This document shows, piece after piece, positions 2,607-64,000 of a DNA stretch of 64,000 bases. The number at the start of each line of letters is the position of its first letter. Position 1 is the first letter of the stretch. The notes beneath the pieces were generated by a model. It did no database searches, was not told the origin of the DNA, and saw only the letters and a list, made by a program, of their open reading frames with translations. Source of the DNA: Tetramitus jugosus (taxonomy: Eukaryota > Heterolobosea > Eutetramitea > Acrasida > Vahlkampfiidae); contig OW569344.1 of NCBI GenBank assembly GCA_937625935.1, positions 620,001 to 684,000 of the forward strand. Reading direction: 5' to 3'. Position numbers and translations under genes: made by a program.

Positions 2607-3001
2607 AGCCTGTGACCGAGCGCTAAATCAGTCTGCTGAGTAATTATGTGGCTTGAGTTTGAACGTCAGTTTTTTTTGAGCTCTGAGGAGAGGAAGAGAT
2701 AATCGTTCAAAGGCATGTCGAGAGAATGTTGGAGCTTCTTTTCAGACAGACACCGTGTGTTGTTTGAGTACCAAAAGAGCGAACAGGTTTTTCGGTTCTC
2801 TTCCAATCAAAAACAATACCTTCCAAAAACTTCTTCGAAGATACGTGTTTTTTCAAGGTTTTTAGGCGGGGGTAAGGAGTTTGCAAACAACTCCTGCTCC
2901 GAGACACGAACTTATCGTTATAAAAGTGCAAGCATCAGCCAATGTCTATATTCCACACACAACAACAACAAGAAAACCAAAACAACTTGTAACATTATAC
3001 T
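2607..3001. other. Divergent intergenic promoter region
   Basis: A 395-bp gap between two divergently transcribed genes. It contains a consensus TATA box for the protease gene (2919-2926) and a CAA-rich leader just before its ATG. No additional gene was recognised; an open frame at 2715-3026 has no family resemblance and crosses the TATA box. Confidence 0.6.
2919..2926 (+). promoter_or_regulatory. TATA box of the cathepsin B-like gene
   Basis: TATAAAAG lies 76 bp upstream of the ATG at 3002 and is followed by a CAA-rich leader. The sequence and spacing fit a TATA-driven highly expressed gene; the transcription start is not known from sequence. Confidence 0.5.
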
Positions 3002-3949
3002 ATGCTTAAACTATCTGCACTCTTAGTCGCCTTGTTCTGCTTGATGGGCGTTGCTTTCTCTGCCTTGTCATTGAATGACCCAGAGTTGATCCGAACTATT
3101 AATTCTCATCCTACTGCTGCTTGGAGAGCTACATCTTATGACAAGTTCGAAGGAAAGACCATTAGTGATGTTGGTCACATGTTTGGTGCTTATTTGACCA
3201 ATTCTATCAGACCATCCATGTACGCTGTTGATCAACCAACAGACAAGAGCACCCTGAGAAATATTCCAGACACCTTTGATGCACGTGACCAATGGCCAAA
3301 GTGTGTTCATCCAATTAGAAACCAACAACAATGTGGTTCCTGCTGGGCATTCTCATCTTCTGAGATGTTGAGCGATCGTTTCTGCATTGCATCCAATGGT
3401 ACCATCAACACTGTTCTCTCTCCTCAATTCATGGTCAGTTGTGATAAGTATGATATGGGATGCAACGGTGGTAACATGGACAGCTTGTGGAAGTTCTTGA
3501 CCACTACTGGAACTGTTGAAGACGATTGCTGGCCATACGTCTCCGGTAAGGGTAACGTTCCAAGCTGCAGAAACACTTGTGTCAATGGTGAAGCAATGAA
3601 GTTCTACAAGGCCAATCCAAAGTCTGTCAAGAACTTCCGTTCTGGTGATGTCAAATCTATTCAACAAGACATTATGACCAATGGTCCAATCATGTCTGGA
3701 TTCATGGTCTACCAAGATTTTATGCAATACTCATCTGGTGTCTACCATCACGTCAGTGGAAGCTTGTTGGGCGGTCATGCCATCAAGGTTGTTGGCTGGG
3801 GAGTCGACTCTCAATCAAAGTTGCCATACTGGATCATTGCTAACTCATGGGGAACAGACTGGGGAATGAATGGTTTCTTCTGGATCAAGAGAGGTTCCAA
3901 TGAGTGCCAACTTGAGCAGTACATGTACACTGCCGAGGCACAAGTGTAA
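3002..3949 (+). CDS. Cathepsin B-like cysteine protease (peptidase C1A), secreted
   Basis: A complete 315-aa preproenzyme. A signal peptide covers about residues 1-20 and the mature domain starts near IPDTFDARDQWPKC (88-101). Papain-family residues are all present: oxyanion Gln108, nucleophile Cys114 in CGSCWAF, His259 in GGHAIKVVGWG and Asn281 in NSWGTDWG. The cathepsin B diagnostic CNGG (154-157) is present. The segment that forms the occluding loop in animal cathepsin B (about 176-193) is short and lacks the paired histidines, so peptidyl-dipeptidase activity is doubtful and an endopeptidase is more likely, as in Giardia and Naegleria homologues. It would act in lysosome-like vacuoles or be secreted. 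Single exon with a TATA box and CAA-rich leader; a family multiplied in Naegleria. Confidence 0.95.
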   Translation: MLKLSALLVALFCLMGVAFSALSLNDPELIRTINSHPTAAWRATSYDKFEGKTISDVGHMFGAYLTNSIRPSMYAVDQPTDKSTLRNIPDTFDARDQWPKCVHPIRNQQQCGSCWAFSSSEMLSDRFCIASNGTINTVLSPQFMVSCDKYDMGCNGGNMDSLWKFLTTTGTVEDDCWPYVSGKGNVPSCRNTCVNGEAMKFYKANPKSVKNFRSGDVKSIQQDIMTNGPIMSGFMVYQDFMQYSSGVYHHVSGSLLGGHAIKVVGWGVDSQSKLPYWIIANSWGTDWGMNGFFWIKRGSNECQLEQYMYTAEAQV

Positions 3950-58702: not shown

Positions 58703-60441
58703 CTATACAGCTGTTAACAAGAGCGACATAACCACTAGAGTAACCAACCAAACTGCAGAACCAATTGGTGACAACCCAGAAGTTCCAGATGTATGGACAG
58801 GGGAAGTAGTTGGATTATGAGAAGTTACCGGATCATGAGAGGTGACTGGATCAGGAGAAGCAACTGGATCAGCAACACAAGAGGGCTTGAACTTTGTTAG
58901 AATGCTGGATGAAGGAGGGGTCGTGAAAGGATCGTTGTACTTCTTAGAATCAATGAATCTGATTGAGTCAATGTACAATGTCCTCATCTTAGATTGATCA
59001 ATCAGTAAGATGGAGAATCCACTGATTGATTGAATGCCAGAGAAATTCATATCGGTCAATGGAACACGAACTCTGGACCAAGCTGTTGAATCGATCTTGT
59101 AGTTTGAAATATATTTCTGAGTGACGTCAATACTGCAGATTCGAGTGTAATTCATATCGACCCACTGGAAGTTGATCTTTGCTTCTCCATCAGCACTCTT
59201 GACAAAGAATTCAAAGTAATCATACTTTGAAGTATCAATCTCAGGACTTCCTCTGTAGTTTGGATCAGTAGGGTTGAGCTTTGCATGATTGATCGTGACT
59301 GCTCCTTTTTGGATTTCAAGTTTAAGAGAATGGGCTCCACACAATGGTTGCTCAATGCTCGAAAAATTGGCCACAGGTTTCACTTCTCCCGCTGGCCACA
59401 CAGTAGTATAAAATCCCCATGTTGGCCAACCAGGCAGATCAGATCTCTCGTTATAAATTTTGAAATAATCCGATTGATTGATTGCACAGGCTGTTTGAAG
59501 AGTTGGGATGATAGGTGGCAGATCACACGATGAACCTGAACACATGATGTGGCCCATTAACTCTCCATTCGGATTCTTCTTTGTTGAAACCTTCACATAC
59601 AACTCGCCTTTGACCAGAGCTGTCCATTCACTATGTGATAGCTGTACAGAGGCACGAATAGGGCTATAGTAACTATTTTTCAATTCAATAGTACGTTGTT
59701 GTACTTTTGGATCCCCTTGTAATAGCGTCACACCAGTTGCAATTTCAGATAGGTCATGGTGAATGTTGAACTGCAATTCTCTTCGATTGGGAAGAAGATA
59801 GAAGAAACCAACACCACTACCACTACTTTCAACTCTACCAGGCATTTGACATGCTTGAAGCATAGCTTGATAGGCATTTTCATTGGTCTGTATCTGAGCA
59901 GGGATTGCGACCTTGTCAGAGCTGAGAGTGCAGTTGGTACATGATGCCTTGACAGTTAAACTGATACCATTGTAGGTGTAATCTACAAAACCCCAGCGCT
60001 CTGAGTAAAAAGCTTCGGTACTACGGAGATAGTTCTCAAACTTCAAATAGAGGTGCTCTCCAATCGTATCATAGTAGTAGGTAGCGTATTCCAAATCGCT
60101 AAGCTTGAACACTTGTTTCAATGAGGAAGGAGGTCCTTGCCATTTGGATGAGGTAACATTAAATGGAAGGGCACTTTGAGGGTATGGAATAGCGAGAACA
60201 ATCCAATCTCCGAGAGCTGTACTATCCATTTTGATCACTAAATTCTGAGGAGTTGGTGTATTACCTCTGTACCTAACTGTGTAACCTGTTCTAGCTCTGA
60301 TGTTACCCATTAATTGGAATTCGTCTGAGCCATGGTATCGTCCAAAGAGATCCGTTTTCTCATTCTGGGATCCTAGCTTAAGGATGTAGTTCGGTGAAAT
60401 AAAACCCATAATAAAAAAATTATGATTTCCCGAGAAGACAC
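58703..60441 (-). CDS. CEMIP/TMEM2-like surface protein with CHRD domain, C-terminal part, GPI-anchor signal
   Basis: The open part spans 60441-58703; an in-frame ATG at 60409 would give 568 aa but no signal peptide, so this is not a natural N-terminus. N-terminal residues (TGYTVRYRGNTPTPQNLVIKM then GDWIVLAIPYPQS) resemble the domain after the beta-helix in CEMIP/TMEM2-like proteins. A CHRD domain follows (ELQFNIHHDLSEI to VKVSTKKNPNGELMGHIMC). The C-terminus is Pro/Ser/Thr-rich and ends in a hydrophobic segment (VWLVTLVVMSLLLTAV) with no cytosolic tail, a GPI attachment signal. An acceptor-like TTAAG at 60442 and phase match an exon ending at 63797, so the gene probably continues upstream across the Fanzor. 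Function: secreted carbohydrate- or matrix-binding protein, inferred. Confidence 0.75.
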
Positions 60442-60466
60442 CTTAACGCTCCTACATAATCTGGAC

Positions 60467-62353
60467 TTACATAGCAGCTTGATGGAGTGAGCCTTGGAGG
60501 TGTTCCACCATTTTGATTAATTCTTTTGCGACCTTTTTCTTCCTCTTGAAGGCATCGGGACGTGACTGTCCATCCATTTCTGTTCTCAGTAGATGGAGCA
60601 TGTTCTTGGCCGCATTGATGTCTCTGTTGTGAGTCACTAAACATTTAGTGGTTGCACACTGTTTAACTCCTCGGACGACAGAGACATTCAACGTTCCATT
60701 CTTGTCTATTCTCTTATGCTTGACTGGCTTGAGTTGACAATGACAGCCATTGCAAATCTGAGAAGTCTTACACTCATCCACCATATGGACTTGGAAATGC
60801 TCAGTCATTCTCTTCAACAATTTGACTTTAGGACTAACCATGTTACCCTTTTAACTATTCTTGAATCCACCATTGCCCATCCCAATCAACATACTTCTTC
60901 CTTTCGACTTCTTTTTCAAATCATTCTTCACACCAGAAAGAGTCTTGTCTCTCATCATGTAACTGTCCCAATTCAGTTTCTTCACCTTTGAAGAACAATA
61001 AAAGTCCAACAAATCTTCCTCGACTTCCAAAACCGAATCAATATGTTCTAGGTACAAGTCATTAGACGAGACATTAGAAGTCTTGATCGAGTTGTGGAGT
61101 TGATCAACATTCTTCCCACTCTTCTCATTCCACTGCTTTTGGAATTTCAATAATCGTTTCTTGTTCTTGGAATGGTGAGAGAGGTGATGGTAGGTCTTGT
61201 TACTCAACTCCCATTTGTTACCATCATTATCAACACAAGACAATAAGGTAACAATACCGGGATCAATGCCCACCAAGTATTCGGATTGAGGGATTGGAGG
61301 TTTTGGATCAACCTTTTTCTTCTTGGGTGCCTTTTCCTCTGACTTCTTCTTTTTCACCTTGTGGTTCACATGGTTATCAATCAATTGATGTCTAACAACC
61401 ACAGAGGCCTGTATACCATCTGTTCTCACAGAGTCAATCTGCAACTTTCTTGAACCGACATTCAAACAATCAAGGTTGTATGAAAACACTGGGCCTTTTT
61501 GGATCTTGTCTAACAATTTTTGAAATTCTTTGGTTCCAATTTCGATACATCTACACCTAAAATGACACTGTGGCAACAAAGTAAATGATTTCCTGTCTTT
61601 AGAGATCAAATATTTTTGAATGTGCCAGTAAAGTTTGAGAATTTGATTAGGATTCTTTTCGATGTAATCTTCACTCATTGGTTCTTTTGTGCCAACAACG
61701 TCATTCACTTCTTTGATCAATTGAGGGATTAAATAAATCAATTCTTGAGGAGGCAGTTTTTGAAAGTCATACACCTCAGCCGTAAAGATTAATTTTCTAA
61801 TGATGTAATCAATCACTCTTCTTTGTTCACTTTTTGGAATCTTCAAAGATGGATCAATCAATTCTTCCATTCTCAGTCTCAAATAGCGCTTCAATCTTTG
61901 CTCCAAAGTGAATTGAAACATATTGGAGATATTAGTGGCCAATGATTTGGCAACATAATTGAATGAATCTGAATAGCCATTGTATATTTTTCGCAACTTT
62001 TCGATTTCATCATTCATGTTGATGGTGGCATTGATTCTTTCAACATTCTTGGTTCTATCAACAGAGTTTCTTCCAAAAAGGACAGAACAAATTCTTTGAA
62101 TGAAGCCTTGATTCACCTCAGGAATATTCACTCGTGATTCCAAGCACTTCAAAACAAAGGAATTGAGGAGCCTAGAGATTCTAATAGCTGCTCTAGTAAT
62201 TCCTTTTGCTCTTTCTTCAATCACTGGAACTAAAGAAGGATGATTCTTCAATAGAGATTTCAAACCAACCTTGATGACATAATGAGAAGAATAGTTTTCC
62301 TTATTGACTCTTGTTCTCTTCCTCTTCCCACTCATGGGTACTCCTCGAGGCAT
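60467..62353 (-). mobile_element. Fanzor (eukaryotic TnpB-like RNA-guided nuclease) gene with one in-frame stop
   Basis: One minus-strand frame runs from the ATG at 62353 to the stop at 60467, 627 codons plus a single internal TAA at 60851-60853. The N-terminal part is helical with a basic start (SGKRKRTRVNK). A bipartite-like nuclear signal (KKKKSEEKAPKKKKVDPKP, about 333-351) precedes RuvC-I YLVGIDPGIVTLL (Asp364). RuvC-II reads MLIGMGNGGFKNS, with Met492 where TnpB has Glu. After the stop come KGNMVSPKVKLLKR, HMVDECKTSQICNGC, the zinc finger (C-x2-C and C-x4-C) and RuvC-III HNRDINAAKN. Family context around the stop (SxKGxxxxPxK) is continuous, so nothing else is missing. Fanzors cut DNA guided by a small RNA encoded at the 3-prime end. 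Either recently inactivated, read through, or a base error. Confidence 0.88.
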
Positions 62354-62732
62354 ACTAATGGTTGTTTGGTTTGATAAAAATGAGATATGATTGTTATTGT
62401 ATTTGTTGTATGGTGTATTTGTTGTGTGTTGTATTTGTTGTGTGAGTTGAATCAAACAGCGAAAAAGACAGCGCTTTTTAAACCGAGGTAGATGGCCGTT
62501 GCCGTTGTAAAGACAGTCTCAACGGAAATTGTTACAACTGCACCAATTCCGCAGCTTAGAGAAAACATTTATTGTATTTTTTTATAATATATCCACCTAC
62601 CTATCCAATCTTGAACCAACGAAAAACTTTCTCTCTGACACGACAACAACAACGAAAAACACAAGTCGCACAACGAACATCAACAACAACAACCAAATCA
62701 ATCAAAAAAGATGGAGAGTCGACAAGAGGTGT
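62354..62732. other. Fanzor upstream region
   Basis: 379 bp between the Fanzor start and the VPS35 fragment on the same strand. The Fanzor leader (62354-62455) is a run of CAA/ATA-type repeats. The next 80 bp contain GC-richer sequence (about 62460-62530). No inverted terminal repeat with the sequence downstream of 60467 could be seen by eye. Confidence 0.5.
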
Positions 62733-63394
62733 CTATTTGCAGTGTGCATTGTAGATTCTCTGAGCAAGTTTCAAGTAGGAGAATACAAGCGGTACCAATG
62801 TGTATTGAATTCTCTTGACACCACCCTGACCAAAGTGCTTTCTGGCTGCGGCCAAAACTTTAAACAATTGATCAGTATCGCTATTGTCAAACAAATGAAC
62901 CAATCTGGCAATCAAGTTCTGTTCTTCTTCGAAATCTTCGAGCAATGTTGCAGCTATTGGTGAGTCGTCAGAAGGTGAGAATGTTGTCTGGTCTTCCTCA
63001 TCCTTCAACAGTGGACGAATCAAATCAAACAGTTTGTTTACTTGTTCAAATGTTGAAATCTTGTGTCCATTGTCAAGTGCGCATCTCACAATGCTCAGTG
63101 CAATAAACTTTCTCTGTTCATATCCAAGAGAATGAATAATATCACCATACTTCTCCAACTTCAAAACTGTTAGCACATTGTTGTATGACTCGAGTGGCAC
63201 CAACAACAATCGCTTCAACATGTCTACAATTTCATCTGAAGCAAGTGCAGTGATATTCAATTGACTAGCAATGTTATTAATAATCTTGTTGACATAGTCA
63301 GTGTTATCAGGATATGTTTGAAGAGCAAGTGTCATCAATGAGATCTGAATACTCAAGTTATCGGACAATTCAACATCTCTCTAATGGTATCAAT
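62733..63394 (-). pseudogene. VPS35: Internal fragment of retromer subunit VPS35
   Basis: An open stretch starting after an acceptor-like ATTAG at about 63391: RDVELSDNLSIQISLMTLALQTYPDNTDYVNKI, LLLVPLESYNNVLTVLKLEKYGDIIHSL, RPLLKDEEDQ, DFEEEQNLIARLVHLF and AARKHFGQGGVKRIQYTLVPLVFSYLKLA. This matches the middle of VPS35 (roughly residues 345-555 of about 790). The match stops at KLAQRIYNAHCK with a stop codon at 62733, and the last 230 residues of VPS35 are absent because the Fanzor leader follows. No N-terminal half was found upstream either. No internal stop breaks the 220 codons, so capture is recent or the fragment is expressed. Retromer VPS35 scaffolds endosomal recycling; this piece alone should not. 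Confidence 0.75.
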
Positions 63395-63504
63395 AGTAGG
63401 ACAGAATTTGACAAACATCAGAAAACTCACACTCATCATCAGGTCACTCGCTCTCACGATGTCCTTCAGAGTGTTTGTTTTCTGTTTTTTGCAAGTTTTT
63501 TTTG

Positions 63505-63740
63505 ATGAAAAAAATCAATGAACAAATGGGAAAACAAGGAAAAGGCGCCAAAAGAAGACATAACCAACACCAACAATTGGTAAAGTTTGGAGTCAAAAGA
63601 AAAGTAAGAATAACCGATATACATATTGATTTATTTGTGTATCTAGTTGGTTCGTTCCTTGGTGTAGAAGATGTGTTGAATTTGGTATTGACGTGTCGGG
63701 ATTTTCGATCTTCGATAGTCAATAATCTATCAACAATAAG
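63505..63740 (+). pseudogene. F-box-like fragment
   Basis: A plus-strand frame from the ATG at 63505. After a basic segment (GKQGKGAKRRHNQHQQLVKFG) it reads DLFVYLVGSFLGVEDVLNLVLTCRDFRSSIVNN, the pattern of an F-box (LP-x-L-x-I-x-x-L-x-x-D-L-x-x-x-x-VCRxF). The frame stays open to 63846, but from about 63748 it lies opposite a coding-like minus-strand exon and loses protein character. No domain follows, so it is either a fragment or the first exon of a gene whose other exons are not visible. Confidence 0.45.
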
Positions 63741-63796
63741 GTCTTATATGGACAATTTGTACTCACACTGTTTGGCCGTTTGCAAGTCAGGCTTAC

Positions 63797-64000
63797 CGTG
63801 CAAATTGCAAAGGAAATTTTTTGTGCCTGTTTTGATTGCTTGTTGAATCAACAAGTACTTGACCGCAGTTCCGTTTAGTCCGGTGTGCTCTGTCAAATCG
63901 GCTTTTGGATCTTGAATAACCAATTGAACAAAACCTTCACCAAAGTATGGACAGGAATATCCGTTCCATTCTGGTTTAGCAGTACATGTCTTGGATGTCA
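63797..64000 (-). CDS. Upstream exon of the CEMIP-like surface protein gene, 5-prime end outside window
   Basis: The minus strand is open from the window edge to a consensus donor (CACG/GTAAGC, exon end 63797). Residues CTAKPEWNGYSCPYFGEGFVQLVIQDPKADLTEHTG follow the CEMIP/TMEM2 pattern C-x-x-x-x-W-N-x-Y-x-C-P with a following strand and acidic turn. The exon leaves one base (phase 1), which pairs with the two-base start at 60441 to give HGVFSGNHNF, then the CHRD-gene frame. The frame is also open to a stop at about 63745, so a short read-through product is possible. If joined, the intervening intron is 3355 nt. Confidence 0.55.

Follow-up and report, generated by a model that had tools for sequence, protein, structure and literature searches.

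Results

A Fanzor gene with one internal stop

The window, by which we mean the whole stretch of 64,000 nucleotides analysed, carries a Fanzor1-type frame of 628 codons on its minus strand (60467–62353). The assignment is based on the reading of open frames, on Pfam, and on a match to SpuFz1 together with a fold match. The frame extends from an ATG at 62351–62353 to its natural stop TAA at 60467–60469 and is interrupted by an in-frame TAA at codon 501 (60851–60853). A preliminary description, made from the sequence alone, had proposed a single-frame Fanzor gene with this lone TAA, and it was right in this and, apart from the place of RuvC-II, in its landmarks: an aspartate at position 364, a cysteine finger, an RD motif and two stretches rich in lysine and arginine all occur in the sequence.

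The only catalytic residue ahead of the stop is the RuvC-I aspartate D364 (61262–61264, counted from the ATG). Downstream of the stop follow the RuvC-II glutamate E527 (60773–60775), the C4 zinc finger C534–C571 (60641–60754, by Pfam and alignment of the copies) and the RuvC-III aspartate D578 (60620–60622, by alignment of the copies), all on the minus strand. E527 was placed by the spacing of a quoted TnpB regular expression and the SpuFz1 alignment, in which it pairs with the Glu of LDEYKTS; it lies 26 residues past the stop. The stop is therefore not situated between RuvC-II and the zinc finger, as had been supposed. The expectation that a product ending at the stop would keep RuvC-I and lose the finger and RuvC-III holds, with E527 lost in addition. 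With Pfam, the half ahead of the stop scores as OrfB_IS605 (E 3.7e-5), short of the curated threshold, and the half past the stop scores as Cas12f1-like_TNB (E 1.1e-8), above the threshold. The window copy does not combine the three catalytic residues in one product, as codon 501 precedes both E527 and D578; its product would lack two of the three and would probably be dead as a nuclease.

The Fanzor1 signature given in the available part of PMC3627910, D-X(125,275)-[TS][TS]-XX-C4 finger-X(5,50)-RD, is found in 20 of the 22 full-length copies of the gene (D364, T530–S531, C534–C571, R577–D578). In the window copy, everything except D364 falls past the stop. According to the accessible literature, the RuvC-II glutamate of Fanzor stands directly ahead of the zinc finger; such a rearranged glutamate, six residues ahead of the finger, is present as E527 in all 22 copies. 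The finger spacing of the TnpB regular expression was not found in the copies of the window family.

The Fanzor family in the genome

A DNA search of the assembly (26.35 Mb, 56 contigs) with the window gene gave at least 46 matches in at least 37 places; 40 of 48 candidates were scored. The Fanzor frame is full length in one frame in 22 of the 37 places and partial or broken in 15. This search for paralogues, which the preliminary description had suggested, showed a sense codon at position 501 and no internal stop in 21 of the 22 full-length copies, the window copy alone being stopped. None of the 22 keeps the two halves as separate genes. D364 and E527 occur in all of them and D578 in 20 (it is missing in L025 and L037), so that 19 of the 21 open full-length copies have all three catalytic residues. 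Between lineages, dN/dS is 0.14–0.19; replacing changes are thus held down. We also noticed one locus, L032, with about 200 bp of unrelated DNA inserted within the Fanzor frame (2867–3061).

The family assignment was examined with L010, an open paralogue. It matches SpuFz1 with an E value of 3e-16. Its structure model, computed from alignment A2, has a mean pLDDT of 68.6 and a pTM of 0.64, and at E ≤ 0.001 it matches seven PDB structures, every one of them a Fanzor, the best being SpuFz (2e-17), with PpFz and GtFz also represented. A first model from alignment A1 was too poor (pLDDT 32.7) and was set aside. An environmental sequence, P0017, is 96% identical to L021 over 360 residues and has a sense codon at the stop position. 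Among viral contigs, 65 pattern hits were obtained, none of which was confirmed as a relative of the window Fanzor family.

The nearest paralogues of the window copy, L010 and L011, are 99% identical to it at the DNA level; both are open and carry a sense codon at position 501. At silent sites the window copy diverges from L010 by 0.013. This agrees with the very recent loss that had been named as one of several options. The description of the gene as otherwise undamaged was too strong: comparison with L010 and L011 shows three more missense changes that are private to the window copy, one of them adjoining E527, and the element that carries it has lost its left end. Private changes (replacing to silent) number 4:1 in the window copy, stop included, 3:4 in L010 and 2:5 in L011. 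Replacing changes are thus in excess in the window copy, which is suggestive of lost constraint but not significant (4:1 versus 5:9 in L010 and L011 together; one-sided Fisher test, about 0.12, calculated by hand).

Two further explanations of the stop could be discarded. An intron spanning it was rejected, as the frame stays open up to the stop and again beyond it, and the 21 other full-length copies align through the site without a gap. A changed genetic code was rejected as well: TAA is not reassigned, because the open copies themselves terminate at TAA. Since the stop occurs in the window copy alone, with a sense codon in 21 of 22, it reflects a private recent loss rather than designed read-through, an intron or recoding. 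We conclude, with a probability of roughly 0.8, that the window gene belongs to a multicopy Fanzor1 family residing in TTAA-ended inverted-repeat elements and was inactivated recently. A single dead copy is nothing unusual in a mobile family with many members.

If the stop were an error in base calling or assembly, or an allele, the organism or some of its strains would have an intact copy. Such an origin would account for the fact that a single substitution separates the window copy from the open ones. We regard this as improbable, because the three additional missense changes, one beside the catalytic glutamate, are what a decaying copy would show, and the missing left end of the element fits such a copy too. 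That the stop is read through, or that it marks a functional short form, is very improbable indeed. The frame past the stop remains open, but given a silent divergence of only 0.013 from L010 this is expected from recency alone; this position is a sense codon in the 21 remaining full-length copies, and the short product would be without E527, the finger and D578. Read-through, which the preliminary description had considered, would if it were by design also be at odds with the use of TAA as the terminal stop of the open copies.

The element and its ends

The right end of the window element is of type B and consists of TTAA (60378–60381) followed by the inverted repeat GGATGTAGTTCG (together 60378–60393, plus strand), as recognized by comparison of paired ends. 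Comparison of copies further delimits, on the minus strand, a block upstream of Fanzor that is common to copies with and without a VPS35 piece (62414–62566), and the rest of the left arm (63421–63867), where homology to other copies stops at 63867. By comparison with L018, where the left end is seen, about 211 bp are missing from the window element, which without this end would presumably no longer move as a two-ended unit.

A BLAST query with the right end, from which TTAA had been excluded, matched in 33 places of the sequence examined. In 32 of these the sequence continues into TTAA and then into unrelated flanks, while L037 continues into TTGG. There are two kinds of ends, type A (GGTGGCGGTCTAC) and type B (as in the window). 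Paired ends in opposite orientation, with at most one mismatch, enclose 14 Fanzor elements, eight of type A and six of type B. Small type-A elements (2.55–2.77 kb, n = 7) are without the VPS35 piece. We also noted a 2.2-kb pair of type-B ends without a Fanzor match (C32:2808–4989), which could be a ghost or the carrier of something else.

Both hallmarks of piggyBac-type elements, duplication of a TTAA target and terminal inverted repeats, are found in the family; in the window copy they are seen at the right end only. The genome contains 12 matches to the piggyBac transposase family PF13843. None of them was found inside elements with these ends; on a shared contig, the smallest distance to such an end (at most one mismatch) is about 238 kb. 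As no PF13843 transposase accompanies these ends, we do not file the elements as piggyBac. Sola3 is another TTAA superfamily, and the elements may belong to a superfamily of this kind. The left arm contains an open frame on the opposite strand (window 63475–63846, plus strand; L029 409–1173, minus strand) with only weak F-box-like or CCCH-finger scores; by eye, the longer form ends in a chromodomain-like stretch.

Host sequences at the locus

The element lies within a host gene. On one side is the 3′ half with a CHRD domain (58706–60377, minus strand), identified by Pfam and by its paralogue on C28; on the other is the 5′ half (63868–64000, minus strand), which has a CEMIP beta-helix, continues beyond the end of the window and was identified by its domain and C28 match. 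The contiguous paralogue matches at 81% over C28:170341–171969 and at 74% over C28:168682–170286, both within a single open frame of 1302 residues. Because the flanking frames match this one contiguous paralogue, we conclude that the element splits a CEMIP–CHRD gene. A distance of 54 bp separates the two C28 matches, so up to about 54 bp of the host gene may have been lost together with the left end. The CHRD frame as a whole extends over 58706–60409, and its first ATG (60407–60409) lies inside the right end of the element. The 3′ half of the host gene may have gained a new start from the element.

Between the left arm and Fanzor, the window element carries a captured piece of the host VPS35 gene (62743–63420, minus strand; Pfam and sequence comparison) which is 98.2% identical to the gene on C22 (L046). 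The piece starts ahead of the open frame of the host exon, in an apparent intron, so capture probably took place at the DNA level. Many element copies carry VPS35, shortened in no fewer than three ways; a family search of the genome gave 30 VPS35 matches, with pieces of one copy counted apart. L018 and L022 have early and late parts of VPS35 joined in one frame of 234 residues, and the copy in L025 extends to the C-terminal part. An environmental protein, P0001, ends like the truncated VPS35 of the element (NAHCK), so the cassette exists outside the present assembly.

We considered VPS35 as selected cargo and rejected this. Comparison of 20 element copies with the host gene, excluding changes unique to L018 and L022 (where the alignment runs across a deletion), gave 12 distinct replacing and 11 distinct silent changes (12 to 6 when five silent ones common to 11–20 copies are left out), and the reading frame is altered in L020, L028 and L032. 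The piece reads as a passenger and may be under weak constraint.

Direct repeats at left-truncated copies

For all 32 TTAA-ended right ends in the sequence examined, we searched upstream for the longest sequence identical to the start of the right flank. Repeats of 13–16 nt were found at four of them: 16 nt at L028, 15 at L033, and 13 each at L026 and L015. Repeats in the controls did not exceed 10 nt, a length reached once among 992 swapped flanks and once among 200 other TTAA sites. At L026, L028 and L033, the direct repeat at the left junction consists of TTAA plus 9–12 nt of the right flank. L033 is a solo right end of 381 bp, and the 15 nt that follow it (TTAA + 11) are repeated at the end of the host DNA on its left. 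In L033 and L026, homology to the element begins within the last 3 nt of the repeat (microhomology), while in L028 a filler of 6 nt separates the two.

L015 was not accepted as a fourth case, because its 13-nt repeat falls in sequence common to another element copy. L015 (1–400) and L048 (496–1100) share left-arm sequence, and the 13 nt starting TTAAGGACATATC recur at the right flank of L015.

A left junction can be seen in ten of the left-truncated copies (L009, L010, L011, L019, L025, L026, L028, L033, L038 and L041). Three of the ten have the repeat and seven, the window copy included, do not; L019 shows TTAAA only, which is too short to count. Outside this count are L029–L032, where the sequence examined stops before a left end, L022 and L040, whose left ends fall just beyond it, the ambiguous L015, and L035, L036 and L039, which were unplaced. 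In the 12 elements for which the sequence examined includes both ends, no repeat is longer than 9 nt.

Discussion

Guided cleavage as a possible source of the repeats

The repeats fit guided cleavage of an empty site followed by one-sided copying of the element, three cases being few. In the sequence of events that we propose, some transposase would insert the elements at TTAA, and Fanzor would use TTAA as its target motif. Its cut in an empty site would fall about twelve bases inside the right flank, within the protospacer. The right-hand DNA end would then copy the element inward from its right end during repair. If copying aborted and the new strand were joined to the left-hand end, TTAA plus 9–12 nt would come to stand before a left-truncated element; a guided cut followed by slight trimming would leave just this length. 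We give even odds to the reading that the left-truncated copies are scars of RNA-guided homing with the motif TTAA in a living eukaryote.

A parallel for the cut is GtFz1 of Guillardia theta. In the accessible reports, its measured motif is TTAAN, which corresponds to the insertion site of the window family, and it cuts after bases 14–17; guides of SpuFz1 are given there as 14–15 nt. A break 9–12 nt inside the flank fits a Fanzor cut in view of this motif and cut position and of this guide length. GtFz1 matches the L010 model in fold (E 6e-11), but its sequence match is weak (E 0.0047) and, unlike the window family with its paired ends, its locus reportedly, in the part of the source available, lacks inverted repeats or a clear link to a transposase.

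The main rival is template switching. The repeats would then have arisen by template switching after excision by a transposase, or by reverse transcription from RNA as in LINEs, and not from a Fanzor cut, which we consider a serious possibility, if one somewhat short of even. Microhomology of 3 nt at two junctions and the 6-nt filler at the third are as in error-prone repair. LINE insertions show left truncation, a constant right end and direct repeats, and the truncated copies with their repeats of 13–16 nt resemble them. Excision by piggyBac transposase, however, leaves its break at TTAA, and an excision-based origin would place the break there rather than 9–12 nt inside the flank. The truncated copies also end exactly at the inverted repeat, without an A-rich tail, which speaks against a LINE-like process, and the absence of repeats above 9 nt from all 12 two-ended elements counts against the rival as well. 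A guided cut repaired by copying from RNA would be expected to leave the same scars as homing through DNA and could account for them.

Relation to other Fanzor elements

SpuFz1 (Spu-1) of Spizellomyces punctatus is the best match to the window family in both sequence and fold. Spu-1 resembles the family, according to the available part of PMC10432273, in being multicopy, in having inverted repeats and in carrying Fanzor without a transposase. The two differ in motif, CATA being given for SpuFz1 in the accessible text as against the TTAA ends of the window family, and in the host-gene pieces carried by the latter; identity in fold alignments is 18–19%.

Truncation with repeats has a precedent in the Helitron-type Fanzor1 elements CRe-1, 2 and 3 of Chlamydomonas. 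As described in the part of PMC3627910 available, their left-truncated copies have direct repeats and complete copies do not; the repeats measure about 7–19 bp and lie downstream of the target tetranucleotide, the count for Fanzor-free Helitrons being 1 in 200. Bao and Jurka, in the same text, left undecided whether Fanzor caused this pattern. The CRe elements differ from those studied here, as far as described there, in transposon type, target (TTTT), an intron-bearing Fanzor and the occurrence of much longer repeats too. Mucor MCi-2 is reported in that source to have a common 3′ region, differing 5′ regions and 11–12-bp repeats ATAATTNNNN(N); unlike the window family, it is described there as having no inverted repeats. 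Fanzor1 elements of insect viruses, again from the accessible part of PMC3627910, have TTAN repeats and 13-bp inverted repeats and are not assigned to a superfamily. If the repeat as a rule consists of the target motif and the first bases of the protospacer, this would account as well for the variable repeats reported for Fanzor1 elements of other transposon types in Chlamydomonas and Mucor.

A literature search, with subscription papers mostly outside its reach, found no paper linking truncated Fanzor copies to guided cutting. In the available part of PMC10432273, published in 2023, guided cutting followed by copying is offered as a merely possible role of Fanzor. With many copies, a motif that equals the insertion site and junctions readable to the base, the present family would make the natural role of Fanzor testable by counting, and the cut site could be read off. 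The broken window gene shows that a copy dead for the protein can retain a near-identical right end; otherwise its importance is minor.

The right-end module

The right-end region of the window element (60404–60560, minus strand), shared at 81–99% with other copies, is a candidate site for a guide-RNA scaffold. If this end makes a guide RNA, the predicted guide would be the first 20 bases of the host flank past TTAA (60358–60377, minus strand), by analogy with loci in the available part of PMC10432273. All published Fanzor loci studied there make RNA at the right end, and its Spu-1 ‘ghost’ loci have kept the RNA while the protein is absent. By the same analogy, the window locus with its near-identical right end could provide a guide for Fanzor made elsewhere, and so be a ‘ghost’ source. 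Folding gave no sign of anything special in the right-end region, which folds no better than its shuffled versions (z −0.91), and was dropped as a demonstration of a guide RNA.

The Fanzor genes are mosaic, and exchange between copies is frequent. When L010 and L021 are compared 30 codons at a time, no stretch up to alignment column 570 has fewer than half of its silent sites different, and in the next two stretches silent differences are 0 and 5%. Near-identity alternates with silent saturation between L021 and L029. Identity to the host gene is 96% for the VPS35 piece of L010 and 98.5% for that of L021. Identity of the right ends might thus be due to recent exchange between copies alone and not to the coding of a guide RNA. 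The sharp fall of L010/L021 silent divergence, which approaches zero towards the end of the frame, the patches of identity elsewhere in L021 and L029 and the ordinary folding of the region would all agree with exchange. Against it stand the RNA made at the same place by the published loci in the accessible part of PMC10432273 and the fact that solo right ends are also kept, and we therefore hold exchange as the only cause to be rather doubtful. The module may have been spread by exchange, held by a guide RNA, or both.

Five right-end remnants of 169–540 bp (L033, L036, L038, L039 and L041) are without a Fanzor gene and are possible guide sources. One of them, L038, adjoins what by eye appears to be a tRNA gene.
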